In this document: one piece after another, positions 4,771 through 28,551 of the stretch
Position numbering within the stretch: position 1 is the stretch's first letter
Layout: every line of letters starts with the position of its first letter
NCBI RefSeq assembly: GCF_030518155.1
Contig: NZ_JAULRU010000797.1
Span: 124,001 to 188,000 of the forward strand
DNA from: Gilvimarinus gilvus
GTDB lineage: Bacteria > Pseudomonadota > Gammaproteobacteria > Pseudomonadales > Cellvibrionaceae
Reading direction: 5' to 3'
DNA: 64,000 bases
Notes under the pieces: generated by a model
Database searches by the model: none
Told to the model about the DNA's origin: nothing
Seen by the model: only the letters and a program-made list of their open reading frames with translations
Position numbers and translations under genes: made by a program

Positions 4771-5925
4771 TTAAGGCCGAGCCTTGAGTTTGTTGCGCAC
4801 CGGATTTGCATACATTTCCAGCACAATATCCCGGTACTCAGAAGGCACGGAACCCACGCGCAAATCAAACGCTGCGCGCTCTTCACGCACATTGCCAGGC
4901 TCAAAAGGTACATTTTTGTCGGAATACGGCAGCGAGCGCGCCTCCTCACCTTCTGCATCGAAGGCAAAACAGTTGCTTGCGTGCAATACATATTGAGCCC
5001 ATATTTGACGATCTATTTCCGCAGCCACGGCATCGGTATCCGCATATTCACCGCTAAGCGCAGAGCCGAACGCTACGTGAACATGGCCCTTTTGCCCGGC
5101 AATTCCTTTGGCAATGCTTTGCACATCTTCCTGATCCCCTTTTTCGTAGCGGCCGGTGGTGCGCTGCGCAAACAATTCATGTGCCTTAGCCGCGTCGCAG
5201 GGATCTTGCTCATAGGATATGGATACCGGAACGATTTTTAAGGAGCGCACATACTCGGAGAAATCTTGAGCCTTGGGACGATTTAACATCAACATACCAA
5301 TCACCGCTGTATTGGTCAGGTCATTGCCATCTTTAGCACGCCCCTCGCGTTGCGCAATCCATATATTGGCTTTGTCCTCGGTCAGAGAATGGTGGATATA
5401 AGCCGATAATTTTTTCGCTGCTTTGAGCTTTTCTCGGGGCGCTTTGGCAGAGCGGTTAACGATAAAACTTTTATTGAGTCGCATCAGGTCAGAGACATAA
5501 GGCTTGGTCAGCAAATTGTCGCCAATGGCAATTCTCAACGTCTGAAAGCCCGCATGATAAATGCTCCAGTTTACAAAAGCCGGGTCCATCGCAATATCGC
5601 GGTGGTTGCTGATAAACAGGTAGCCCCCGTTGGGGTCGAGCTGATCGAGACCGGAGCTGGTAAGTCGAGTGGTCGTGGTTTCGATCATGTGGCGCATGTA
5701 TTTCTCAACAACCTGCTGAAACTTATCTACACTGTCTACCGCAGCCAACTGCCTTTTCATGACATTTTTCACGATAGGCCGCAAAATGAACCCTAAAGGT
5801 CCAGCCAAATGTGGAAATTTTAATTTGGCCACCGCATCGGCAAGCTCCGGGTCATTAAGAATACGGTCCAGGGCGGGACGAACTTCGTCGTCGTGGTAAG
5901 GTCGAATATCGTCAAAATCAGTCAT
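4771..5925 (-). CDS. PlsC-like acyltransferase (1-acyl-glycerol-3-phosphate type)
   Basis: A 384-residue protein of the PlsC/LPLAT acyltransferase superfamily, expected at the inner membrane in phospholipid remodelling. The catalytic motif is FISNHRDIAMDPAF, with the conserved His and Asp, and the acceptor-site motif appears as AQREGRAKDGND in place of FPEGTRS. The frame is open to 5973, but the start at 5925 (MTDFDDIRPYHDDEV) is preferred because the conserved sequence begins there; the extra 16 residues (MDRRCDVHAFD...) look non-coding. No good ribosome-binding site marks either start. It leads the operon with dinG and yqcC. The exact acyl donor and acceptor are not known. Confidence 0.8.
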   Translation of the reverse strand: MTDFDDIRPYHDDEVRPALDRILNDPELADAVAKLKFPHLAGPLGFILRPIVKNVMKRQLAAVDSVDKFQQVVEKYMRHMIETTTTRLTSSGLDQLDPNGGYLFISNHRDIAMDPAFVNWSIYHAGFQTLRIAIGDNLLTKPYVSDLMRLNKSFIVNRSAKAPREKLKAAKKLSAYIHHSLTEDKANIWIAQREGRAKDGNDLTNTAVIGMLMLNRPKAQDFSEYVRSLKIVPVSISYEQDPCDAAKAHELFAQRTTGRYEKGDQEDVQSIAKGIAGQKGHVHVAFGSALSGEYADTDAVAAEIDRQIWAQYVLHASNCFAFDAEGEEARSLPYSDKNVPFEPGNVREERAAFDLRVGSVPSEYRDIVLEMYANPVRNKLKARP

Positions 5926-6051
5926 GAGTAGGTTCACAGAATCAAATGCATGGACGTCGCAGCGCCGGTCCATGTCAGTATTCAGGACATGCTTGAGCCA
6001 GTATGGCTGTCAGCGTAAACAGGCGCACAACATACCCAAAAGAGGTGGAAA

Positions 6052-6456
6052 ATGCCACTCGCAGCCCCCAATTACTGTCCATGCGGTTCAACGGTAGCAG
6101 CCTCTCAATGCTGTTCCCGCTTTATTTACCAAGGTCAGGCCGCCTCTACCGCACTCGAGCTTATGCGATCGCGCTACAGTGGCCACGTCTGTGGAGCCAT
6201 AGAATACCTGTGGGAAACGTGGAGCGAGTCCACGCGCCATCGCACATCAATCGCCGCTATTCGCGAATGGGCCACCAGTTGTGAATGGCTGGGGCTGGAA
6301 ATTTTAGATTGGCAGGGTGGCGGGCATAGTGACAGTCAGGGCACAGTAACCTTTAGCGCTACCTACCGTATCGGCCAGCAAACCCACCGCCACCTGGAAA
6401 AGTCAGCGTTCTGCCGCGAAAACGGTTTTTGGCGTTATTTCGATCATTGCGCTTAA
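6052..6456 (+). CDS. YchJ family SEC-C motif protein
   Basis: A 134-residue protein of the YchJ (UPF0225) family. The N-terminal zinc-binding SEC-C motif reads YCPCGSTVAASQCCSRF (about residues 8-24). The rest is the NTF2-like domain: ALELMRSRYSGHVCGAIEYLWETW, a central WLGLEILDWQGG, and the ending KSAFCRENGFWRYFDH, where YchJ proteins usually have EKSRFVRENGRWYY. The SEC-C motif coordinates zinc; the cellular role of the family is unknown. GAGGTGG lies just before the ATG. It diverges from the acyltransferase operon. Confidence 0.85.
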   Translation: MPLAAPNYCPCGSTVAASQCCSRFIYQGQAASTALELMRSRYSGHVCGAIEYLWETWSESTRHRTSIAAIREWATSCEWLGLEILDWQGGGHSDSQGTVTFSATYRIGQQTHRHLEKSAFCRENGFWRYFDHCA

Positions 6457-6543
6457 AACATCTCCATTGTGTGAAGCATATGATGTTTTTCACGCCAAAT
6501 AGCAGTACACTTTAACCTGCTACCGTGGGACTCAAGCTCAAGT

Positions 6544-7806
6544 ATGAAAATTCTGCTAGTTGAAGACAGCGCGACTTTGCGCCATGCCATGAGCCAGTAT
6601 ATTGTCGATGCTGGTCATACCCCGCTGGTCGCAGAAAGTGGCGAGCAGGCGCTGCAGTTACTTGAAGATAATCCCGTGGACATGATTATCATGGATGTGG
6701 AGATGCCCGGACTCAACGGCTTTGAAACAACCGCACTCATTCGCGAGTGGCTGGGCGACCACTGGATTCCCATTGTCTTTGTCACGGGCATGAGCGAGGA
6801 CGAAGACTACCGTCAGGGCATTGAGGCCGGCGGTGACGATTATCTTATCAAGCCAGTCAGTAAAATGATCATCACGGCTAAAATTCGCGCCATGGAGCGG
6901 ATTGCCGATATGCGCGATCAGCTCAACCGGCTCAATAGCGAGCTAGAAGCCATCAGCCAGCTCGACAGTCTCACGCAAATTTACAACCGCCGCACATTCA
7001 ATGAGCAAGCCCTTAAGCAGTGGTTGCTGGCGAGTCGTCAGAATACCTGTATTAGCGCACTCATGATCGATGTAGATCATTTCAAACTCTACAATGACCA
7101 TTACGGTCATCCGGCTGGTGACGCGTGCCTGAAAGAGGTTACCGCCGCCATTGAACAGTGCCTAAATCGACCCTACGACCTACTTGGACGGTATGGCGGT
7201 GAAGAATTTGTTGTACTCTTGCCGGAAACCAACAAAGAGGGAATCGCCAACATTAGTCAACGTATTCGTCGCTCTCTGGCCGATCGCCAGGTAGCCCACG
7301 ATGTCTCCCCCACCTCCGACACGGTGACGGTTTCCATTGGCGGAGCCTGTTGCCTGCAGACGACCGGGCACACCCTGGAGGGGCTAATCAAAGCGGCCGA
7401 TCGTGCTCTTTACCGCGCCAAACATTCAGGCCGCGATCAATTCAGTATTGACGAAATGGCTTCACACCGCACGGTGGTGGTGGCCCATTCAGATTTGAAA
7501 ATTCAGCAACAGGCTTGCACTCAACTGCAACAACACTACAACCTGATAACAGCGGACTCCGCCGATGAGGCATTGGAACTGTCACTGACAATAAGGCCCG
7601 ACTTAATAGTGTTAGGGCCTGAGCTGGCCGACCACCAGGGACGCTATCTAAGCGATCGACTCGCCACGGCCAAGCGCACCCGTTCAACACCGCAACTATT
7701 TTTGGGACAACCGCAGGGCGAAGGGCTCGACGCCAAACCCTGCGTCGCACTGCCGCTACAACAGGATGACCTGATAAAAGTCGCGGGGCAGCTTCTCAGC
7801 GCCTAA
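6544..7806 (+). CDS. Response regulator diguanylate cyclase (REC-GGDEF plus degenerate REC)
   Basis: A 420-residue cytoplasmic protein. Residues 1-120 are a receiver domain with phosphoacceptor D51 (IIMDVEMPG), acidic ED at 7-8, and K103. A short coiled linker leads to a GGDEF domain (about 135-295) with active site GGEEF at 218-222, so it should make cyclic di-GMP. The inhibitory I-site RxxD is present as RPYD (209-212), exactly five residues before GGEEF, predicting product feedback. Residues about 312-420 look like a second receiver fold in which the phosphoacceptor position is Gly (IVLGPEL), so it should not be phosphorylated. No partner kinase is adjacent. It is transcribed towards pyrB. 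Confidence 0.88.
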   Translation: MKILLVEDSATLRHAMSQYIVDAGHTPLVAESGEQALQLLEDNPVDMIIMDVEMPGLNGFETTALIREWLGDHWIPIVFVTGMSEDEDYRQGIEAGGDDYLIKPVSKMIITAKIRAMERIADMRDQLNRLNSELEAISQLDSLTQIYNRRTFNEQALKQWLLASRQNTCISALMIDVDHFKLYNDHYGHPAGDACLKEVTAAIEQCLNRPYDLLGRYGGEEFVVLLPETNKEGIANISQRIRRSLADRQVAHDVSPTSDTVTVSIGGACCLQTTGHTLEGLIKAADRALYRAKHSGRDQFSIDEMASHRTVVVAHSDLKIQQQACTQLQQHYNLITADSADEALELSLTIRPDLIVLGPELADHQGRYLSDRLATAKRTRSTPQLFLGQPQGEGLDAKPCVALPLQQDDLIKVAGQLLSA

Positions 7807-17518: not shown

Positions 17519-19369
17519 ATGGTTGTTAGAAAATACCTGACTGCTGTTTGTATGTTGACACTCGTTGCCTGCCAATCCAGTGATGATCACCTTAATAACC
17601 CGAGCAGTGAAACGACCGTAAATGGCAACGACAGAGATTATATTCAAACACTCTTTTATGCCGAGCAAAACTGGAGTGAAGCCGATCGATTGTGGTTTTA
17701 CAATACCTCTCAAGGGTCTAATTTAATCCCCCTAGAGTTTTTTCTGCATTTGGAAACTGCACACAACACTGAGCTGTTTCGCGCCGCCCGAAACATGGGA
17801 CGCTACCGCTACCTGCCGCAGAATGTCAGCCAGCAAAACCCCTATGGTTTACCGCTGGGATGGGTTGCCAACACCCATGAGGGGGAAACGTATGTAGGCC
17901 TGACTTGTGCCGCGTGCCACACCGCTCAAGTTAATTGGCAAGGGCGCTCCATCAGAATTGACGGCGGCCCCGCAATGGCTGACATGGATAAAATGCTTGG
18001 TGAGTTAGAGCAAGCCATTGCAGCTACTCTAACTCAAACCGATAAATGGCAGCGATTCAGTACGGCCCTAGCTGCCATACCGCAAGCAAAATTGCGTGCA
18101 CAGGTCGAGTTGGTTTATCGAGAACTCGCGGCCTACAACGCACGTAACCGTTCGATAAACAAGGGAACGGAGGTCGCGTACGGTTATGCCAGGCTCGATG
18201 CGTTCGGACGCATTTATAACCGTATACTTTCTCACCTAACGCCCAACGCGAATAACGCTAACTCGCCCAACGCCCCCGTTAGCTACCCTTTTTTATGGGA
18301 TACCCCACAGCATGATTTTGTCCAGTGGAATGGCGTGGGGGATAATTCTGGCCATGGAGCCCTTGGCCGCAATACGGGTGAAGTTCTTGGTGTGTTCGCC
18401 AGCTTCAACCTGCGAACACACAACCAGGCAGCGGGCTACCCCTCCTCAATCGACGTAGCAAATCTAATAGCACTTGAAAAACACCTGGAGAAGCTGTGGT
18501 CTCCCAGCTGGGAATCTCTGGCTCAACGCGAATTGTTACCGCCTATTAATAGGGAACTGGCCGCAGCGGGACAGACGCTATTTCACCAGTATCAGTGCCA
18601 CACGTGCCATCAGCCGATTCAACGGCAGAATCCGCAGCGGCGTATCCTGGCGCAAATGAGCTCAATGCAACGTATTGGGACAGACCCGCAAATGGCAGAA
18701 AATGCTTTTAACTATTCGGGGTTAAGTGGCTATTTTGAAGGTCAGTACATTGATGACGCCGCGCCAGAAAATGGGCAATTTAAAGCAGTAGCGCAAGGTC
18801 TGCTAGCATTACGTAAAGCCAGCTCAGGAGCCATTCGCTATGCTCTGGCCGGACAAAGCTCACGCGAAAACAGTGCGGCCGACGCAGGCAAAGTACAAAA
18901 CAGCACTAAGTATTTAGACCTGACGACCACCAACAAAGCCTCACCCAGAGCGCTTTTAGCCTATAAAGCACGCCCTTTGAACGGTATATGGGCAACAGCC
19001 CCCTATCTACACAATGGCTCTGTACCAACGCTTTACGACTTGTTGCTGCCGGCCTGCGATAGACCATCCCCGCACCTGCAGTGCCGCCCCAACCGCTTTT
19101 CAGTTGGATCTTTCGAGCTCGACACAACGTTAGTGGGCTTCATTAAACATGAAGCCACAACCAGTCAGGAACTTTTTATATTTAATACCCAACTACCCGG
19201 CAACAGCAACCGCGGCCACGAATATGCCGCCGGGGTTACTCCAGTGATAGTGACGACTAACAGTGGCGAAATCAAATATACTGACGAAGGAGAAATGTTA
19301 ACCAGAACGCTACCCGCACTCGATCATGAACAACGTCTGGCGCTGGTAGAGTATTTAAAAACCCTGTAA
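17519..19369 (+). CDS. RoxA-like di-heme cytochrome c lipoprotein
   Basis: A 616-residue exported protein. The signal MVVRKYLTAVCMLTLVAC ends in a lipobox (Cys18), so it should be anchored at the outer membrane. Two heme c sites are present: CAACH at 130 and CHTCH at 360. Text around the first site (GLTCAACHTAQ, RIDGGPAMADMD) places it in the large di-heme-cytochrome-c-peroxidase group that includes rubber oxygenase RoxA and RoxB, rather than the short CcpA/MauG proteins. The distal part holds GIWATAPYLHNGSVPTLYDLL, the heme-pocket signature of these proteins. The gene is not next to any maturation genes. Substrate is unknown; a peroxidase, an oxygenase or an electron carrier are all possible. 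Confidence 0.82.
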   Translation: MVVRKYLTAVCMLTLVACQSSDDHLNNPSSETTVNGNDRDYIQTLFYAEQNWSEADRLWFYNTSQGSNLIPLEFFLHLETAHNTELFRAARNMGRYRYLPQNVSQQNPYGLPLGWVANTHEGETYVGLTCAACHTAQVNWQGRSIRIDGGPAMADMDKMLGELEQAIAATLTQTDKWQRFSTALAAIPQAKLRAQVELVYRELAAYNARNRSINKGTEVAYGYARLDAFGRIYNRILSHLTPNANNANSPNAPVSYPFLWDTPQHDFVQWNGVGDNSGHGALGRNTGEVLGVFASFNLRTHNQAAGYPSSIDVANLIALEKHLEKLWSPSWESLAQRELLPPINRELAAAGQTLFHQYQCHTCHQPIQRQNPQRRILAQMSSMQRIGTDPQMAENAFNYSGLSGYFEGQYIDDAAPENGQFKAVAQGLLALRKASSGAIRYALAGQSSRENSAADAGKVQNSTKYLDLTTTNKASPRALLAYKARPLNGIWATAPYLHNGSVPTLYDLLLPACDRPSPHLQCRPNRFSVGSFELDTTLVGFIKHEATTSQELFIFNTQLPGNSNRGHEYAAGVTPVIVTTNSGEIKYTDEGEMLTRTLPALDHEQRLALVEYLKTL

Positions 19370-19434
19370 TTTACACAGTGCCTGTATTATTTTACGCAAA
19401 CACTCAAGCGATCATTAACAAAACCAATCAAATT

Positions 19435-20940
19435 ATGCCTGAAATACTAATAAGACATTTGCACAAGATATATATTGGCGTATTGCTCTTGTGCTCGCTC
19501 AGCGTTTACACCATTGGAATCGGCCATCCCAATGCGCTTTTTTGGGATGAAAACTACCATATAGCATCGGCGCAAAAGTATATTGACGGCGTGATGTATA
19601 TGGAACCCCACCCACCTTTGGGAAAACTCTTGATAGCCGGCAGCGAAGCAGCGCTGAAGCTAAATAGCGACAAAGATAAATCTCAATTTAACCGAACCGA
19701 TTACATCACCGATACACATATGCCCGAGGGCGGCATTCAATACACAGGTTTTCGGCTTCCCTCCGCTTTGTTGATGGGGCTTTCTGTATTATTTTTTTAC
19801 GGCACCGTAAGGCGCATTACGGCTAACAAGCATTTAGCTTTTGCGTTTAGCTTTTTCCTAATATTTGACAATGCATTGGTTATTCATGCGCGCGCGGCCA
19901 TGCTTGAAGGCATTCAGCTGTTTTTTGTATTGGCTGCCATCTATCAAATGACAAGGGCGATTACCGACAAGTATCAATATCAAGCCGAAATTCGTTTAAA
20001 ACACTACGTCTATTTAGGCCTCTGGATAGGCTTAGCCGTGTCTGTCAAAATTAATGGTGCCGTGCTGCTGCTTCTGTTTGTTATGTTGTATGGCGCTGAC
20101 CAGTGGGAAAGCTTACGAAACAGGCAGTGGTGGCCACTGCTTCGTCGCCTGACCACCTCCGCACCATGCGGCGTTATGCCATTGGTAGCAATAGTGTTAT
20201 CGATTTTTTACTTACACGTTGGGCTCGGCGGCGAAATTGCCGCTCATAAGACCTATAAAGCTGGCTCTCAATACCAACAGTCGCTAGCAGAGAATGGCAG
20301 CTGGAGTCTTTCTACGTTTCTCGCTGCCATGCCCGATAACGGACGCTATATGTCTGAATACGCCGATGGCGTTCCGCGACTTGATATATGTAAAGAGGGG
20401 GAAAATGGCAGTTATGCGCTAGGCTGGCCTCTGGGGACTAAAACCATTAACTATCGTTGGTCTAAACAAACCACCGACGGCACAACTTATGTACGCTACC
20501 ACAACATCTTAGCCAACCCTGTCATTTGGTTTTCTGTCGTCGCCGGATTAATTCTTTCAGCGGGCTTGATCATTAGCCGCTATATCTACCAGAATCCGGT
20601 CAAAGATACCGCTTTATTTTACTGGATCGTCGCTTTCAATACGCTTTACTTGGGCTACATGGTCGCAATTTTACAGATCGACAGGGTAATGTATCTGTAT
20701 CACTATCTAGTGCCACTCACCTTTGGCATTATTAATTTGGCGCTTGTATTCCAGTATGTATTTCTCGAGCAGCTGGCCCGAGGCAGTCGTCATACTTACA
20801 CTAATTTAGCCTGTTATGTTCTCTTGGCTTTCGGGGTGTTTGCTCTCTTCTCCCCCTTTACGTATAGCTGGGAGCTCACTGAAACACAGTTTGCTGCTCG
20901 CAACTGGTTTGGTTTTTGGAAGCTGGAGTTGGTGCGCTAA
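19435..20940 (+). CDS. PMT-family (GT39) membrane glycosyltransferase
   Basis: A 501-residue polytopic membrane protein of the GT-C fold. The first loop carries FWDENYHIASAQKYIDG then MEPHPPLGKLL, the DE...HPPLxK signature of protein O-mannosyltransferases (D38-E39 are the expected catalytic pair). Further PMT-like text is YTGFRLPSALLMG, LIFDNALVIHARAAMLEG and LYHYLVPL near the end. About ten membrane helices are visible; there is no MIR domain. The polyprenyl-phosphate mannose donor and protein Ser/Thr acceptor are inferred from the family. The frame is open from a GTG at 19378; the ATG at 19435 is chosen because the extra residues are not family-like. Neither has a strong ribosome-binding site. 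The stop overlaps the next gene as TAATG. Confidence 0.82.
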   Translation: MPEILIRHLHKIYIGVLLLCSLSVYTIGIGHPNALFWDENYHIASAQKYIDGVMYMEPHPPLGKLLIAGSEAALKLNSDKDKSQFNRTDYITDTHMPEGGIQYTGFRLPSALLMGLSVLFFYGTVRRITANKHLAFAFSFFLIFDNALVIHARAAMLEGIQLFFVLAAIYQMTRAITDKYQYQAEIRLKHYVYLGLWIGLAVSVKINGAVLLLLFVMLYGADQWESLRNRQWWPLLRRLTTSAPCGVMPLVAIVLSIFYLHVGLGGEIAAHKTYKAGSQYQQSLAENGSWSLSTFLAAMPDNGRYMSEYADGVPRLDICKEGENGSYALGWPLGTKTINYRWSKQTTDGTTYVRYHNILANPVIWFSVVAGLILSAGLIISRYIYQNPVKDTALFYWIVAFNTLYLGYMVAILQIDRVMYLYHYLVPLTFGIINLALVFQYVFLEQLARGSRHTYTNLACYVLLAFGVFALFSPFTYSWELTETQFAARNWFGFWKLELVR

Positions 20941-21494
20941 TGAATTGCAATACCTTATTTTCCGTTCTTCTGGTCGGCGTAGTTGCACTGATAGGGTATC
21001 GCCTGATGCCGCCTATGGTTGAGGCCAATTTTACCCTCACCCTCAGTAAAAGCCGTGGCAACATAGAAAAAATCAATCAACCCAGAGAGATCTCAGCGAC
21101 AGAAACGGTTGCCATCGACCGCGTGAAATTGAATGAGAAAAGTCGTTTTCAACATAAAAAATTAGGGCCTTTGGGATGGAGTGAGCACTTCTTTGCCGAT
21201 ATCGTGTCACGCTTTGTAGTGGAAGAAGAGGGGCGCTATCGGTTTCTCGTCGGCAGCGATGACGGTTTTCGGTTGGCCATTGATGGTCGCGTACTTTGTC
21301 AATACGCCACCGACCGCCCTTTTCGCAAACAATCATGCTATCAAAGCCTTGGGGCTGGCGAGCACACTCTCGAACTTAACTACTTTCAGGGCTATGGCAA
21401 CGCTGGTTTGACGCTAGAAGCAGCCAAAGATGGAGAACAAGCGCCTGCGTACTGGGGCGACGATATTGCGGGGATTCAGTATATAACCCCTTAA
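20940..21494 (+). CDS. Membrane-anchored PA14-like domain protein
   Basis: A 184-residue protein with one N-terminal hydrophobic segment (LFSVLLVGVVALIGYRL, about 6-22) and a periplasmic or surface domain. The sequence VVEEEGRYRFLVGSDDGFRLAIDGR, then LGAGEHTLELNYFQGYGNAGLTLEA, has the PA14 pattern (SDDG, a buried strand, and the G-x-H-x-x-x-Y turn), a carbohydrate-binding beta-barrel seen in glycosidases and adhesins. The ATG shares its A with the stop of the PMT gene, indicating translational coupling, with GGAG upstream. It may bind the glycan or the acceptor of that enzyme; this is inference. Confidence 0.7.
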   Translation: MNCNTLFSVLLVGVVALIGYRLMPPMVEANFTLTLSKSRGNIEKINQPREISATETVAIDRVKLNEKSRFQHKKLGPLGWSEHFFADIVSRFVVEEEGRYRFLVGSDDGFRLAIDGRVLCQYATDRPFRKQSCYQSLGAGEHTLELNYFQGYGNAGLTLEAAKDGEQAPAYWGDDIAGIQYITP

Positions 21495-21626: not shown

Positions 21627-23528
21627 ATGGCCACTCATACAAAATTCAGCGTAGCGATCAAAAGTTGGGCATTCGCTTGCTCAGCGGCCGTAGTCTTAAC
21701 GGCTTGTGGCGGCAGCAGTGGCGACTCATCAGGTGACGAAGCTACCCCGGCGCAACCTCCCGAGGCTGTCTCCCCGAGCGCGGCCGTTTCCCCTCAATCT
21801 ATGGATATTTCCTGGAACAGCGTCAGCGATGCGACCTCTTATCAAGTATCTCAAGATTTGGATGGCAGCTCTGGCTTCACTATCATCGCGGAGAACCTGA
21901 CCGACACGTCTATACAGGTTCCATTGCCCACGCATCTTACTGACTGGGAAAACGCCCGTTATATGGTCGAAGCTTGCAATAGCGCCGGGTGTACACCCAG
22001 TACGGATTTGTACATTGCAGGCCAAACGCTCGACGCAATCGGGTATTTGAAGCCGGACGTGATTCGTGAGGAGTCGCGCTTCGGCTTTAGCATGGCCATA
22101 ACTCCAGACGGTCAAACCCTTGCCGTTGGCGCGCCACAGTATGATCTGATTACCTCTGAACGCAATGAAAAACACTCGGGTGCAGTATTTATTTATAGCA
22201 ATACAGCAACGGGTTGGAATCTTGTGCAGAAAATCGAAAACCCGGTTCAGCAAGACACTGATTGGGACTTTTTTGGCTACTCACTGGCCATCTCAGACGA
22301 TGGATCTTCACTGCTTATTGGCGCGCCCTCCGAAGACGGCGGCGGCAACGCCGTTAATGCCGACATGAATCAGCAAAGCGGCTTTAACTCTGGCGCTGGA
22401 TTTTTATACCAGCGAAGCGGCGAACAGTGGCAATTGTCCGCCTACCTTAAAGCCGCTAACGCCGATCGCGATGATTACTTCGGATTGCGCGTTGCGATGT
22501 CAGGTGACGGATCAACTCTCGCCGTTAGCGCCCCCTACGAAGCCAGTGATGCTGCGGGGGTAAATCCTGACGACAGCGACAACAGTATTGAGCTTGCCGG
22601 AGCCGTTTACACTTTCGAGCAAGTCGAAGGGCAATGGCAACAAACCAATTACATAAAACCTTCGACGGGATCATACTTTGAAAACTTTTGCTTCGATCCT
22701 CGCCCGCCAAACAGCCCAACATGTTACGCCAAATCACCCTCTAAGTTTGGCTACGGATTAGCACTTTCAGATGCAGGTGATGTATTAGTCGTTGGTGCAC
22801 CCGGTGACAGCTCGGCATCTGCCGGTATCAATGGGGCGGAAAATGATTACCGAGCCAAAAGCTCCGGAGCCGTGCATGTGTTACGTAAAGGCGATACTGG
22901 TTGGACGCACACCGACTATATCAAATCGATTAACCCTGACATCGATGATGAGTTCGGCCTCAACCTTGCGCTGTCCGGCGATGGCAACACACTGGCCATT
23001 GCCGCACCTTACGAGGACAGCTACTACTCTGGTATCACCCACTCTGACTCGTTAGCATTCGAATCTGCTGATGAAACAGAACAAGATTCAGGTGCCATCT
23101 ACATTGTGAGTTACAGCGCCGATGAATGGGCGCATAGAGCCTTTATCAAAGCGCCCCGCCCCGATGAAAATGATTTGTTTGGCTGGGGCTTGGGACTAAG
23201 CGAAAATGGTGACCTATTAGCCGTAGGTGCACCTCGCGACGACTCCGAAGCTACCGGCATCAACGGTAATTGGGACAACAGCAGCGCACCTGCAGCCGGT
23301 GCCGTTAGTGTGTACGGAGCAGACGACAGCGACACTTGGTCAATGATTAATTACGTCAAAGCAAGTAATACCGACGCCAATGATACATTTGGCCGTACTC
23401 TCGCGCTCTCCGCTGACGGGCAGGTTCTGGCTGTGGCGGCCACAGGAGAAGATAGTCAGGCCACTGAAAATCAAGGTGATCAAAGCGATGACACGGGTAA
23501 TAATTCCGGCGCCATCTACATTTACTGA
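21627..23528 (+). CDS. Lipoprotein with FN3-like domain and seven FG-GAP-like blades
   Basis: A 633-residue exported lipoprotein: signal peptide with lipobox LTAC (Cys27), a linker rich in Ser, Pro and Glu, an FN3-like domain (about 50-135; SWNSVSDATSYQVSQD), then seven repeats of about 65 residues. Each blade opens with F-G-x-x-(L/V/M)-A-x-S-x-(D/N)-G-x-x-L-A-(V/I), followed by an acidic loop and (S/A)-G-A-(I/V)-Y, as in integrin-alpha propellers. Counted openings: SRFGFSMAI, FFGYSLAIS, YFGLRVAMS, KFGYGLALS, EFGLNLALS, LFGWGLGLS and TFGRTLALS, giving a closed 7-bladed propeller. CGGAG precedes the ATG. Function unknown; surface binding is likely. Confidence 0.82.
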   Translation: MATHTKFSVAIKSWAFACSAAVVLTACGGSSGDSSGDEATPAQPPEAVSPSAAVSPQSMDISWNSVSDATSYQVSQDLDGSSGFTIIAENLTDTSIQVPLPTHLTDWENARYMVEACNSAGCTPSTDLYIAGQTLDAIGYLKPDVIREESRFGFSMAITPDGQTLAVGAPQYDLITSERNEKHSGAVFIYSNTATGWNLVQKIENPVQQDTDWDFFGYSLAISDDGSSLLIGAPSEDGGGNAVNADMNQQSGFNSGAGFLYQRSGEQWQLSAYLKAANADRDDYFGLRVAMSGDGSTLAVSAPYEASDAAGVNPDDSDNSIELAGAVYTFEQVEGQWQQTNYIKPSTGSYFENFCFDPRPPNSPTCYAKSPSKFGYGLALSDAGDVLVVGAPGDSSASAGINGAENDYRAKSSGAVHVLRKGDTGWTHTDYIKSINPDIDDEFGLNLALSGDGNTLAIAAPYEDSYYSGITHSDSLAFESADETEQDSGAIYIVSYSADEWAHRAFIKAPRPDENDLFGWGLGLSENGDLLAVGAPRDDSEATGINGNWDNSSAPAAGAVSVYGADDSDTWSMINYVKASNTDANDTFGRTLALSADGQVLAVAATGEDSQATENQGDQSDDTGNNSGAIYIY

Positions 23529-23666: not shown

Positions 23667-25757
23667 ATGAGAGACGAGTTTTTCACCCCGAGGAAGCATC
23701 TGAGAGCTGTTGCAGGCGCTTTACTATGCCTGACGCTTACCGCTTGTGGTAGTGATAGTGATTCGGACTCATCAGACAGCTCCAGCAGCGCAACCAGCTC
23801 CAGCAGCTCCTCATCCTCAGAGTCTTCCAGTGCTTCTAGCGTTGCAGGAAGCTGGCCAGATATAAATATCGAAGCGGCTGCAGCGAAAAGCTTGCGTATC
23901 TACTGGGACGCGGTGGATGGCGCGACATTCTATCGTGTATATAAAGACCCAGACGGCAACAGTGGCTTTAGCCAAATTGGCGGCGATGTTACCGCACCAG
24001 AGATTTATGACACTGTCAGTGTCCACCTGAAAAACTGGGCCGAAGCTCGGTATATGGTGGAAGCCTGTGTCAGTGATAATGATTGCGAAAACTCTGAACA
24101 AGCCATTGCCATCCACGCTATGGCCGACAGTATTGGCTACGCCAAAGCCTCTAATACTGATGCGGAAGACTGGTTTGGGTGGGATATTGCTCTTTCTGGC
24201 GATGGTAAAACACTCGCCGTTGGCGCAATACAAGAAGACTCTACCTCTCGCGGTATCGATGGCGACCAGGACAACAATGACAATCTGTCCACCGGTGCAG
24301 TGTACGTTTTTAGTCTGAGCAGCACGGGCTGGTCTCAACAAGCCTACATCAAAGCATCCAACACTGAACAGCTGCGCAGTATCGAAGACAGCGAAGGTAA
24401 TGAGCTTGAGTTTTACATATCCCAAGACCGGTTTGGCTATTCAGTCGATCTCTCCGATGATGGCAGTACGTTGGCGGTTGGCGCTATCCGTGAGGACAGT
24501 AACGCGCGGGGTATTAATGGAGACGAAGATAACAATCAGGCCTCAGAAGCGGGCGCCGTTTACATGTTCGAACGCAATGCAGGAACTTGGGCACAGACGG
24601 CCTACGTGAAGGCTTCCAATACGCCGGAAGAAGAAAGCAGTTCTTCGTCCAGTGATAGCTCTTCAAGCTCCTCGACCTCAAGTGATAGCAGCTCCAGTGA
24701 CAGTAGCAGTAGCAGTGAAGAAAGTGACACCACGGGTGATCGATTTGGCCACTCAGTAGCTCTATCCGGAGATGGCACAACGCTCGCCGTTGGCGCGATA
24801 TACGAAGCCAGCGCCGACGGTGGAATTAATGGTGATGAAAGCGACAATACCGCCCCCAACGCCGGAGCGGTATACATCTTCACCCAAATTGATTCAGGCT
24901 GGACCCAACAAGCCTACCTCAAAACAGCCGCTCCTCGGGGCGGTGACCGCTTTGGCTCTAGTTTGGCTCTTTCTCATAATGGGGATGTTTTAGCTGTCGG
25001 TGCCATAGGCGAGGACGGCGCGGGTACCGGTGTCAACGAAGACATTCCTGATGACTCACTTGTTACCTCATCAGGCGCGGCCTATATATTCCGCCGTAGC
25101 GATGCCGCCTGGGAGCAGGAGGCCTATTTAAAAACAACCTTCACCTTCCTGGATCAAAGACTTGGTACGGCTATTGCCCTGTCCGCCGACGGTCATACAC
25201 TGGCCGTATCTGCGACAGGCGAAGGCAGTCGAGCTACCGGCATTAACGGAGACCCGGAAGATTACGCTGAGTTGCTTGAATTGGCCGATGGTGAAGACAG
25301 GCCCGAAACCGCTTACAAATCTGGCGCCGTGTACATCTATCAATATGATGAGAATACCTGGTCAATGACCACTTATATCAAGGCAAGCAATGCCGACGCC
25401 TACGATGAGTTTGGACGCGACTTAGCTATCTCAGCTGACGGTAATTATCTCGCCGTAGGCGCTTTTCTAGAAGACAGCCAAGCGAGCGCTATTGACGGTG
25501 ATCAGGAAGATAATAGCCTCGAAGATTCCGGCGCCGTATATTTATTCGAACGCACAGGAACAAACTGGCACCAGCTGCGCTATATCAAGGCCAAACGGAC
25601 CGAAGCCAATGATCGCTTAGGCAATGCCGTTGCTCTCGACGGGACCTCCGCCACATTGGCAATTGCGAGCTACCACGAAGACAGTACAGCGAAGGGACTT
25701 TCGGCGGATGATAGCGACAACAGCGCGAATAATTCAGGCGCGGTGTTGCTTTACTAA
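23667..25757 (+). CDS. Serine-rich lipoprotein with FN3-like domain and seven FG-GAP-like blades
   Basis: A 696-residue paralogue of the preceding protein. The signal ends in LTAC (Cys27). A Ser/Asp tract (about 28-60) precedes an FN3-like domain (about 68-150; IYWDAVDGATFYRVYKD). Seven blades follow, opening WFGWDIALS, RFGYSVDLS, RFGHSVALS, RFGSSLALS, RLGTAIALS, EFGRDLAIS and RLGNAVALD. The loops carry acidic GINGDEDNN-type motifs that could bind calcium. A second serine tract of about 32 residues (about 324-355) is inserted between blades 2 and 3. Closer within itself than to its neighbour in the blade loops. CAGGA precedes the ATG. Surface-exposed and possibly O-glycosylated; function unknown. 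Confidence 0.82.
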   Translation: MRDEFFTPRKHLRAVAGALLCLTLTACGSDSDSDSSDSSSSATSSSSSSSSESSSASSVAGSWPDINIEAAAAKSLRIYWDAVDGATFYRVYKDPDGNSGFSQIGGDVTAPEIYDTVSVHLKNWAEARYMVEACVSDNDCENSEQAIAIHAMADSIGYAKASNTDAEDWFGWDIALSGDGKTLAVGAIQEDSTSRGIDGDQDNNDNLSTGAVYVFSLSSTGWSQQAYIKASNTEQLRSIEDSEGNELEFYISQDRFGYSVDLSDDGSTLAVGAIREDSNARGINGDEDNNQASEAGAVYMFERNAGTWAQTAYVKASNTPEEESSSSSSDSSSSSSTSSDSSSSDSSSSSEESDTTGDRFGHSVALSGDGTTLAVGAIYEASADGGINGDESDNTAPNAGAVYIFTQIDSGWTQQAYLKTAAPRGGDRFGSSLALSHNGDVLAVGAIGEDGAGTGVNEDIPDDSLVTSSGAAYIFRRSDAAWEQEAYLKTTFTFLDQRLGTAIALSADGHTLAVSATGEGSRATGINGDPEDYAELLELADGEDRPETAYKSGAVYIYQYDENTWSMTTYIKASNADAYDEFGRDLAISADGNYLAVGAFLEDSQASAIDGDQEDNSLEDSGAVYLFERTGTNWHQLRYIKAKRTEANDRLGNAVALDGTSATLAIASYHEDSTAKGLSADDSDNSANNSGAVLLY

Positions 25758-26978: not shown

Positions 26979-27380
26979 TCAGCTTTCCAGCCAGACATCG
27001 CGTACCCAGTGCCAAACACTTTGCCATCGCTCATCACTTAAATCACCGTCACGCCAAAACACCACTTCGCCGTCCGGTTCTACACAATAGTAGTGGCCAT
27101 GAGACTCGCACAGGGGAACAAGGTGCCGGGGTACGCCGCGGGCCCACGCACTCGCAGCCACTTCTGGCAAATAGGTATGAGAGTAGGGGTCTGCCGCGGT
27201 CACAGGCTCCAAAGCGCCATAGATTACATCACTCGCGGTTAGTAAATACTCTCGCATATCACGTGGAATGGGGAGCAGTATCTCCTCCTCAACCAGCACT
27301 AATGTATCGTCATCCGGCAGCTCCAAGGGCACAGGCACAGACTCGGCGCTGCTTTTTAGATCATCAATGACGTCTTCCAT
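26979..27380 (-). CDS. SUKH (SMI1/KNR4) family protein
   Basis: A 133-residue acidic cytoplasmic protein of the SMI1/KNR4 type. The core reads LVLVEEEILLPIPRDMREYLL (about 27-47) with the loop DPYSHTYLPEVAASAWARG, then PLCESHGHYYCVEPDGEVVFW, ending SVWHWVRDVWLES. A similar standalone SUKH protein is widespread in Pseudomonas and relatives. Family members include immunity proteins of toxin systems, but no toxin gene is adjacent. The ATG at 27380 is preferred to the GTG at 27389. Confidence 0.78.
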   Translation of the reverse strand: MEDVIDDLKSSAESVPVPLELPDDDTLVLVEEEILLPIPRDMREYLLTASDVIYGALEPVTAADPYSHTYLPEVAASAWARGVPRHLVPLCESHGHYYCVEPDGEVVFWRDGDLSDERWQSVWHWVRDVWLES

Positions 27381-27571
27381 CGGGCACACTTCTCAAAAAA
27401 TTAGGGGCGACTAGACTAACCCCGTGGCAAGGAGGTGACAAGACCCGAAAGTTACTTATAGCTAAGAGTAATTAAGCGCCAAACCTTCCAATAACTCAGC
27501 GCACAACTCACAATATCGGCACATTTTCCGCTTCAGTTTTACAGGGCTTCCATCTAGGCCTTAAGTATTAA

Positions 27572-28551
27572 AAGCGTGAGAAAGCAACCAGGAAAGCCTT
27601 AGTGGTGATGAGCATATTGCCACTTGCCGCCTGCGGAGGAGGCTCCCGCGGAGAAGATTCAGGCAACACACAACCCCTTCCCACTTCGACTGGATCCTCC
27701 AGCAGCACCGAGACATCGAGTCAAAGCTCCTCGCCAAGTAGCGAAACATCTTCTTGCTCGAGCGAGCCCCCCCCTCGAACTCAAGCAGCTCGTCTTCAGT
27801 CATAATCCGCAGCTCATCAAGCAGTTAAGCGTCCGTAAGCTCTGACAGCTCGAGCAGTGCAAACACCAGTTCGAGCGAGTCGTCCACCTCCAGCGAACCA
27901 GTTTCAAGTGGCAGTGATTCATCTAGCTCGAGCAGTTCATCCAGTAGCAGCGAATCGTCCTCTAGCTCTAGTAGCTCGGCAGTAAACCTTGCGATTGTGC
28001 AGGGGCTAGCAACGGATGCCAATTCTGGCTCGATCACCGTTGCCTGGGACTCGGTATCAGATGCAACGGGGTACAACGTCTATTGGGCTCGCGAACCATA
28101 CATCAGCAGTGCCAATATTGGCTCCCACACTGGAGGAGATTGGAACGAAGGGGTCACCTCACCGCACACGATCTCAGGTTAGCGCGTTGGTACATTTTAT
28201 TTTTCAAGCTATGATTGCTGGTTCTTATCATCAATGGTGACACAGAAGTTTGCGCGTTCGGGCAGCAACTATTTTGTGACTGGGGTTATCTATAATGACA
28301 GCAACGGCAATAATTTCTATGACGTCGGCGAGGGATTAAATGGCGTGACCGTAGACGTAGACGGCACCAATACCAGCACCCTCAACACCGGCGCCTACAG
28401 CATCGCCAGGGGCAACGGTACCTATACGGTTACCGTCAGCGGTGCCAGCATCCCCGGCGGTAGCGTCTCGGATACGGTCACCATCAATAGCGCCAACCGA
28501 AAATTTGATGTCATTGTTAATGGTGCTGCAGCGACTGTTAACACGTGGTGA
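27572..28551 (+). pseudogene. Decayed serine-rich FN3/CAP-type lipoprotein gene
   Basis: Remains of one exported lipoprotein gene in several frames. The first frame (27572-27804) gives a signal-like ALVVMSILPLAACGGG followed by Ser-rich text; its natural start codon is not evident (GTG at 27602 is too late). At a run of eight C (27767-27774) the serine frame shifts: the +1 frame then gives NSSSSSSV, but has a stop TAA at 27826 before continuing as a long Ser tract and an FN3-like domain (ITVAWDSVSDATGYNVYWA). That frame ends with TAG at 28180. A further piece (28234-28551) reads MVTQKFARSGSNYFVTG then YDVGEGLNGVTVDVDG, which matches the part following the CAP/SCP domain in related proteins; the CAP domain itself is missing. 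Frameshift, stops and deletion mark it as dead. Confidence 0.7.
27767..27774 (+). repeat. Homopolymeric C8 tract inside the serine-linker pseudogene
   Basis: Eight consecutive C residues where the serine-rich reading frame breaks. One C more, or two less, would restore the frame downstream. Confidence 0.85.

Follow-up and report, generated by a model that had tools for sequence, protein, structure and literature searches.

Why does a gene for a bacterial protein O-mannosyltransferase (PMT) overlap a gene for a membrane-anchored PA14 protein in Gilvimarinus gilvus, a member of the Cellvibrionaceae (below, the family)? The two genes lie in a 64,000-nucleotide stretch of this genome (contig NZ_JAULRU010000797.1, positions 124,001 to 188,000; the window). 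An original prediction made from its letters alone had proposed a dedicated surface O-glycosylation module, with the PMT as enzyme, the PA14 protein as glycan- or acceptor-binding partner and downstream serine-rich lipoproteins as substrates. The analysis reported here leads us to favour, with modest confidence, a two-subunit membrane O-glycosyltransferase in which the PA14 protein would hold the glycosylated product as the MIR domain does in yeast.

A Pmt-like enzyme and its PA14 partner

The first gene of the pair (19435-20940, + strand) encodes 501 amino acids, from an ATG at 19435 to a TAA at 20938-20940, and was assigned to the GT39-type PMTs from its Pfam domains, predicted structure, fold matches and conserved catalytic residues. 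A Pfam scan run from an upstream GTG at 19378 matched both PMT (92.5 bits; cut-off 22.7) and PMT_4TMC (61.9 bits; cut-off 32.4), in agreement with the identity first proposed, and a genome-wide scan returned this protein as the sole Pfam PMT match. It carries the motifs WDEN (37-40) and HPPLGK (59-64), and its nearest relatives are Gilvimarinus proteins with 65-76% identity. The predicted structure (predicted local distance difference test, pLDDT, 93.3) has a glycosyltransferase C (GT-C) fold with 11 long membrane helices, counted by eye, and its outer loop 4 (265-361) consists of 97 residues with one beta hairpin. No MIR domain was found in the protein by Pfam scan or in this loop of the model.

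Residue roles were transferred, by motif and alignment, from MtPMT of Mycobacterium. PMC12331936 describes D74, D176, R441 and Y444 of MtPMT as essential and reports that little activity remained when its second acidic residue was changed from D to E. The corresponding set is present here: an acidic residue in the first outer loop, a second acidic residue and R-x2-Y. Across 103 aligned PMT rows, of which 100 are distinct, position 158 (E158 in the window) is always E or D, and D38, R417 and Y420 are never substituted, with gaps in one or two rows. The window protein resembles actinobacterial PMTs such as MtPMT as a bacterial GT39 enzyme without MIR and with matching catalytic residues. It differs from MtPMT in that E is the commoner residue at the second acidic position, and its score of 34.4 bits, against a cut-off of 800, puts it outside the NCBIfam protein O-mannosyltransferase equivalog NF058602, for which "actinobacterial type" is our own label. 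As far as its sequence and model allow the assignment, it is a GT-C enzyme of Pmt1/2/4 type with intact catalytic residues and without MIR.

The best PDB match of the model was Chaetomium Pmt4 (template modelling score, TM-score, 0.81), followed by Pmt2 and Pmt1 chains, with E values of 1e-15 to 3e-12 across the three. A profile of 46 PMTs searched against solved structures (E 0.01) retrieved only four distinct sequences, namely Pmt1, Pmt2 and two Pmt4. Other GT-C families, such as ArnT and the arabinosyltransferases, act on glycolipids, and the enzyme could likewise modify a non-protein acceptor (surface polysaccharide or lipid), with PA14 binding that glycan. Glycolipid-acting families do give weaker fold matches to the PMT, and the GT2 enzyme discussed below resembles ArnC as well as PgfS. 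ArnT, however, was matched at only E 6e-5 and TM-score 0.33, ranking below seven Pmt chains and an oligosaccharyltransferase chain, and no ArnT model was matched by window proteins in Pfam or NCBIfam scans. PMT_4TMC and the loop 4 hairpin are retained, and among family loci no polysaccharide or lipopolysaccharide gene emerged as a conserved neighbour of the pair. We consider a non-protein acceptor improbable.

The second gene (20940-21494, + strand) encodes 184 amino acids, from an ATG at 20940 to a stop codon ending at 21494, and scores 34.0 bits against Pfam PA14 (cut-off 24). Its model (pLDDT 96) combines an N-terminal membrane helix (predicted 3-22) with a PA14 beta-sandwich, as expected of the membrane-anchored partner first described; the PA14 domain would be periplasmic. 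The closest solved folds are sugar-bound Marinomonas PA14 domains with Z about 16 (16.4 to both 5j6y and 6xa5), and comparison with MpPA14 gave Z 16.4 and 2.5 Å over 150 residues. In sequence alignment D107-D108 coincide with the Ca-binding Asp110-Asp111 of MpPA14, and R126 comes next to Ser130, a sugar-contacting residue of loop L9. Through 6m8m, a relative to which the partner aligns without gaps, Q150 would be placed in or adjoining loop L11, where the other ligand residues are located. These four residues are invariant in 58 partner rows (55/55 distinct) although partner sequences fall to 20% identity with the window protein, so the ligand site, beyond the fold alone, seems to be under selection. 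One divergent partner (L018) gave no Pfam match (E 0.01). The protein thus shares fold and Asp-Asp motif with PA14 adhesin lectins (MpPA14, MhPA14 and Flo1/Flo5), from which it differs in being a single membrane-anchored domain coupled to a glycosyltransferase, in the invariant R126 beside the site, and in an identity of 8-19% to its PA14 lectin fold matches.

Fold and invariant ligand site support the glycan-binding role originally suggested for the partner, with binding itself a prediction. The PA14 protein might instead serve in assembly, stability or recruitment, for example by docking the PMT to the translocon or an acceptor. The tight linkage described below would suit any obligate subunit, and some conservation, including G76, G79, F84 and F102, lies outside the named ligand residues. 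The strictly conserved residues nevertheless include the canonical Ca/sugar motif, and another carbohydrate-binding domain, NPCBM, is fused to two PMT relatives (see below). We regard such a non-lectin role as rather unlikely.

Linkage of the two genes within and beyond the family

The PMT stop and PA14 start share one base within TAATG (20938-20942, + strand), an overlap that the original prediction had read correctly. The neighbourhood survey of Cellvibrionaceae that it suggested was run by searching 144 genomes for each protein, taking E <1e-100 for the PMT and E <1e-30 for the PA14 partner as strong matches. Strong PMT matches were present in 41 genomes and strong partner matches in the identical 41; by coordinates, the two genes are adjacent, on a common contig and strand, in all 41. 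Weak matches in other family genomes (four PMT and four PA14, the latter in frames of about 670-720 amino acids) were set aside, and two PA14 matches flagged for an internal stop proved to be natural protein ends. In 33/33 family loci the distance from the PMT stop to an in-frame PA14 start is -3 to +6 nucleotides, with one shared base in 12 and a four-base overlap in six; the junction script took the in-frame start codon nearest the PMT stop, and the real start may differ in some loci. PMT is rare order-wide (4/194 genomes). Because every PMT-bearing family genome carries it, the pairing is not chance, and on this genomic evidence the PA14 gene is a constant, tightly linked partner of the PMT in Cellvibrionaceae.

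No conserved third gene was found beside the pair in family loci at a criterion of at least 3 of 10 groups and 4 of 36 loci. Two clusters that passed this threshold were rejected, since their positions marked them as antisense frames inside or beside the PMT. Immediately upstream in the window, 17519-19369 encodes a di-haem cytochrome c peroxidase-like protein (NF040606, 593 bits) with a RoxA-like stretch, ending 65 bp before the PMT start; this gene belonged to no neighbour cluster common to three or more genera.

To look beyond the family, named genomes were scanned, which yielded 80 homologous PMT loci. Named loci and family genomes overlap (L011 and L156, for example, are identical DNA), and the two surveys are not independent. 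A PA14 partner lies beside the PMT in 32 of the 80 loci: 15/15 loci gammaproteobacterial by title, 13/13 Campylobacterota, 3/4 spirochaetes and one unclassified bacterium. The order is reversed, with PA14 upstream of PMT, in seven loci, all from Campylobacterota, a group in which PMT is itself rare (3/249 genomes sampled). The coupling first noticed at a single locus thus extends to three named phyla and two gene orders. A tree of 77 PMTs groups all 33 that have PA14 inside one supported branch of 43, and the PA14 label changes four times on the tree compared with 25.2 times in shuffles. PMT residues that differ between enzymes with and without PA14, such as Q161, follow this tree and were not used as docking evidence. 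A candidate PMT-PA14 fusion in L080 (617-amino-acid open reading frame, ORF) was rejected as a longer frame of a separate PA14 gene overlapping the PMT, and no natural fusion was present in the loci read. The PMT was unmatched in phage records, and PA14 matches on a Phaeobacter plasmid span only 49% of the partner.

Two of three Nitratiruptor plasmid records were read (L086 and L087). Both are small and carry a row of PMT, PA14, GtrA and GT2 genes. Type II secretion and prepilin-like genes are also present, as are genes for an S8 peptidase and polyserine lipoproteins, and the plasmids may represent a portable secretion and glycosylation cassette. A spirochaete locus (L028:7414-11041) contains a GtrA-like ORF, recognised by eye, with PMT, PA14 and GT2 genes beside a pectate-lyase protein with polyserine tracts. 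A second, partial PMT lies directly downstream of the pair at L017:9071-9700, where it is cut by the contig end, and is probably a tandem duplication. Near-identical PMTs occur at L043:1675-3240 and L065:7884-9449; the contig titles are Caldithrix and Turneriella, and one of the two metagenome bins may be mislabelled.

Candidate sugar donor and substrates

A relative of the plasmid GT2, 55% identical, is encoded in the G. gilvus genome at C762:106222-107142, adjoining a GtrA gene. Proximity of GT2 and GtrA, which on the Nitratiruptor plasmids adjoin PMT-PA14, is shared with known polyprenyl-phosphate pathways (ArnC, PgfS and Ppm1/DPM synthase). Unlike in those pathways, the GT2-GtrA pair of this genome is on a different contig from the PMT-PA14 pair, with a second GtrA gene elsewhere, and the GT2, although nearest to PgfS and ArnC in NCBIfam, scores below every equivalog cut-off listed. 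The GT2 was matched in 40 of the 41 PMT-positive family genomes, the sole exception being 72% complete. Mannose, the sugar implied by the original prediction, is supported by no result here; for a Caldicellulosiruptor PMT system, a review reports conflicting evidence for galactose.

Downstream of the pair, two genes encode lipobox proteins (judged by eye) with FG-GAP repeats (Pfam FG-GAP_2). The second (23667-25757, + strand) has two long polyserine tracts, both also present in a 56% identical homologue from the Gilvimarinus locus L007, and bears out the description of a serine-tract lipoprotein. The first (21627-23528, + strand) resembles it, one L007 protein matching both, but has only a short Ser/Pro-rich tether and does not fit that description. 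A third, decayed lipoprotein gene (about 27603-28551, + strand) was confirmed by reading its serine-rich start and by tblastn with the longer proteins of L006, L007 and L010, which recovered fragments at 27979-28173 and 28189-28548 with the middle gone; other Gilvimarinus have the gene in longer, open form. A SUKH_5 protein, from a family often linked to toxin immunity, is encoded at 26979-27389 (- strand), in the interval that separates the two lipoproteins from the decayed copy.

The downstream lipobox proteins would be natural candidates for PMT substrates in Gilvimarinus. Polyserine ORFs were counted among exported ORFs of at least 120 amino acids with at least 14 Ser/Thr (9 Ser) in 20 residues, using reading frames from a simple script, not a trained gene finder, and export predicted by a crude hydrophobicity and lipobox rule. 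Five of six Gilvimarinus PMT windows contained one; the sixth (L093) is the upstream half of the present window and cannot contain the downstream lipoproteins, so that the other Gilvimarinus loci scanned downstream stand at 5/5. Polyserine lipoproteins, of similar size in other Gilvimarinus loci, also occur beside the pair in L006, L009 and the window itself. Among other family PMT windows (15-19 kb), 5/27 had a polyserine ORF, compared with 2/40 control windows from PMT-positive genomes and 2/40 from PMT-negative genomes (Fisher p = 0.11 against the former, p = 0.043 against both sets). A stricter first script, whose threshold was loosened for the second, was applied to part of the windows and gave 4/17 PMT loci (one Gilvimarinus), 0/20 controls and 1/20 PMT-negative windows.

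Campylobacterota PMT loci contained polyserine in 4/13 cases against 1/20 control stretches (1.5 to 20 kb long and drawn from six of the same genomes), spirochaete and unclassified loci in 1/4, and Nitratiruptor plasmids in 2/2. Pooled, with Gilvimarinus, plasmids, PMT-negative windows and L080 left out, polyserine ORFs numbered 10 in 715 kb near the pair against 3 in 1,012 kb of control, a ratio of 4.7 (one-sided p = 0.010; taken separately, p = 0.086 for the family and p = 0.099 for Campylobacterota), where relatedness among rows inflates the p values and makes them indicative only. A general tie between polyserine and PMT was rejected as a rule, PMT-negative windows having the same rate as PMT-positive controls. 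In L080, an ORF at 5911-7722 directly upstream of the pair has two long polyserine linkers and resembles, by eye, a secreted cellulase with a cellulose-binding module.

These counts bear on whether the pair is dedicated to its serine-rich neighbours as specific substrates, as first proposed. The recurrence of polyserine lipoproteins beside the pair in Gilvimarinus fits such a role, as do the pooled enrichment and the two plasmids. Outside Gilvimarinus, however, the family excess over PMT-positive controls is 5/27 against 2/40 (p = 0.11), no gene save the pair was found conserved across at least three genera, and the polyserine proteins are unrelated between loci (choice-of-anchor I, pectate lyase). 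We regard a dedicated module as unlikely; the PMT is probably not confined to neighbouring proteins. Actinobacterial PMT substrates, according to the source text available, include linkers and lipoproteins. The portions of PMC3124978 and PMC2386152 consulted place polyserine regions of Saccharophagus between lipobox and enzyme domains, and contain no mention of their glycosylation.

A proposed two-subunit model of bacterial O-glycosylation

In the two-subunit model favoured here, an ArnC/PgfS-like GT2 together with a GtrA protein, both encoded elsewhere in this genome and beside the pair in some other phyla, would synthesise a polyprenyl-phosphate sugar in the cytoplasm. The lipid-linked sugar would reach the outer face of the inner membrane, where the PMT would move it onto Ser/Thr of exported proteins. 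The PA14 domain, beside the active site, may grip already glycosylated residues through its putative Ca-dependent sugar site and so let the PMT proceed along Ser/Thr-rich tracts, as a counterpart of the unrelated MIR domain in yeast Pmt1-Pmt2. In lipoproteins and secreted enzymes, linkers and tethers rich in Ser/Thr would be the likely substrates, and these would include the serine-rich lipoproteins downstream of the Gilvimarinus pair. According to PMC7759382, mannosylated peptide is a ligand of the yeast MIR domain, which also affects how processively Pmt1-Pmt2 acts on S/T-rich substrates. The bacterial pair has what such a mechanism needs: the enzyme shares the Pmt core and lacks MIR, and its constant partner keeps a lectin site; by analogy the PA14 partner may fill the MIR-like part.

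Several points weigh against this model. Its activity, complex and sugar binding are all predictions from sequence and modelled structures; an Asp-Asp motif is by itself no proof of lectin activity, and PA14 lectins can bind many sugars. The GT2 also occurs in 54 of the 103 PMT-negative family genomes and is therefore not specific to a PMT pathway. Exported polyserine genes are as frequent in PMT-negative windows as in PMT-positive controls (2/40 each). In the wider clade, 48 of the 80 PMT loci, mostly from Patescibacteria and Peregrinibacteria, show no PA14 partner, a few of them being cut by contig ends; PMTs of this clade can thus work without one.

A Pfam scan covering seven of these 48 PMTs, chosen mainly for length or a C-terminal extension, identified an NPCBM domain at the C terminus in L076 (7821-9989; 110.8 bits) and L068 (1334-3295; 108.7 bits; cut-off 23.9), and a match below cut-off in L074 (7926-9587; 19.8 bits). 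The Pmt C terminus is luminal in yeast, and a fused NPCBM would then face outside, as PA14 should. We propose more tentatively, at somewhat less than even confidence, that many bacterial PMTs are two-component systems, with carbohydrate-binding modules of unrelated fold, either a coupled PA14 membrane subunit or a C-terminal NPCBM fusion, recruited independently of the eukaryotic MIR for processivity on Ser/Thr tracts, and that the pair travels as a portable cassette with donor synthase and type II secretion genes, as on the Nitratiruptor plasmids.

The model sets the pair between known systems. With eukaryotic Pmt1-Pmt2 and Pmt4 it shares the fold, the PMT and PMT_4TMC domains, the catalytic residues and, putatively, a carbohydrate-binding module that serves the enzyme. 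It differs from them in that the chain contains no MIR and a PA14 protein of unrelated fold, separate and membrane-anchored, supplies the sugar-binding-like module. PMC12331936 describes bacterial PMTs as lacking MIR and probably using distinct mechanisms. PA14 was not mentioned in the portions of PMT literature text-searched for that word, PMC12331936 included, and full-text searches of open-licence literature listed no paper recognisable, from its title and the beginning of its abstract, as describing a PMT with a PA14 partner; parts of PMC12757957, PMC8092209 and PMC11727336 were also drawn on.

The bacterial PMT work that we found is mostly on Actinobacteria, and the present pair adds a Gram-negative clade in which the lectin-like partner is constant. 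If the model is true, the pair would offer a simple, dissectable system for a lectin module driving an O-glycosyltransferase along repeated Ser/Thr, and it would become testable whether marine polysaccharide degraders glycosylate their polyserine linkers and tethers.

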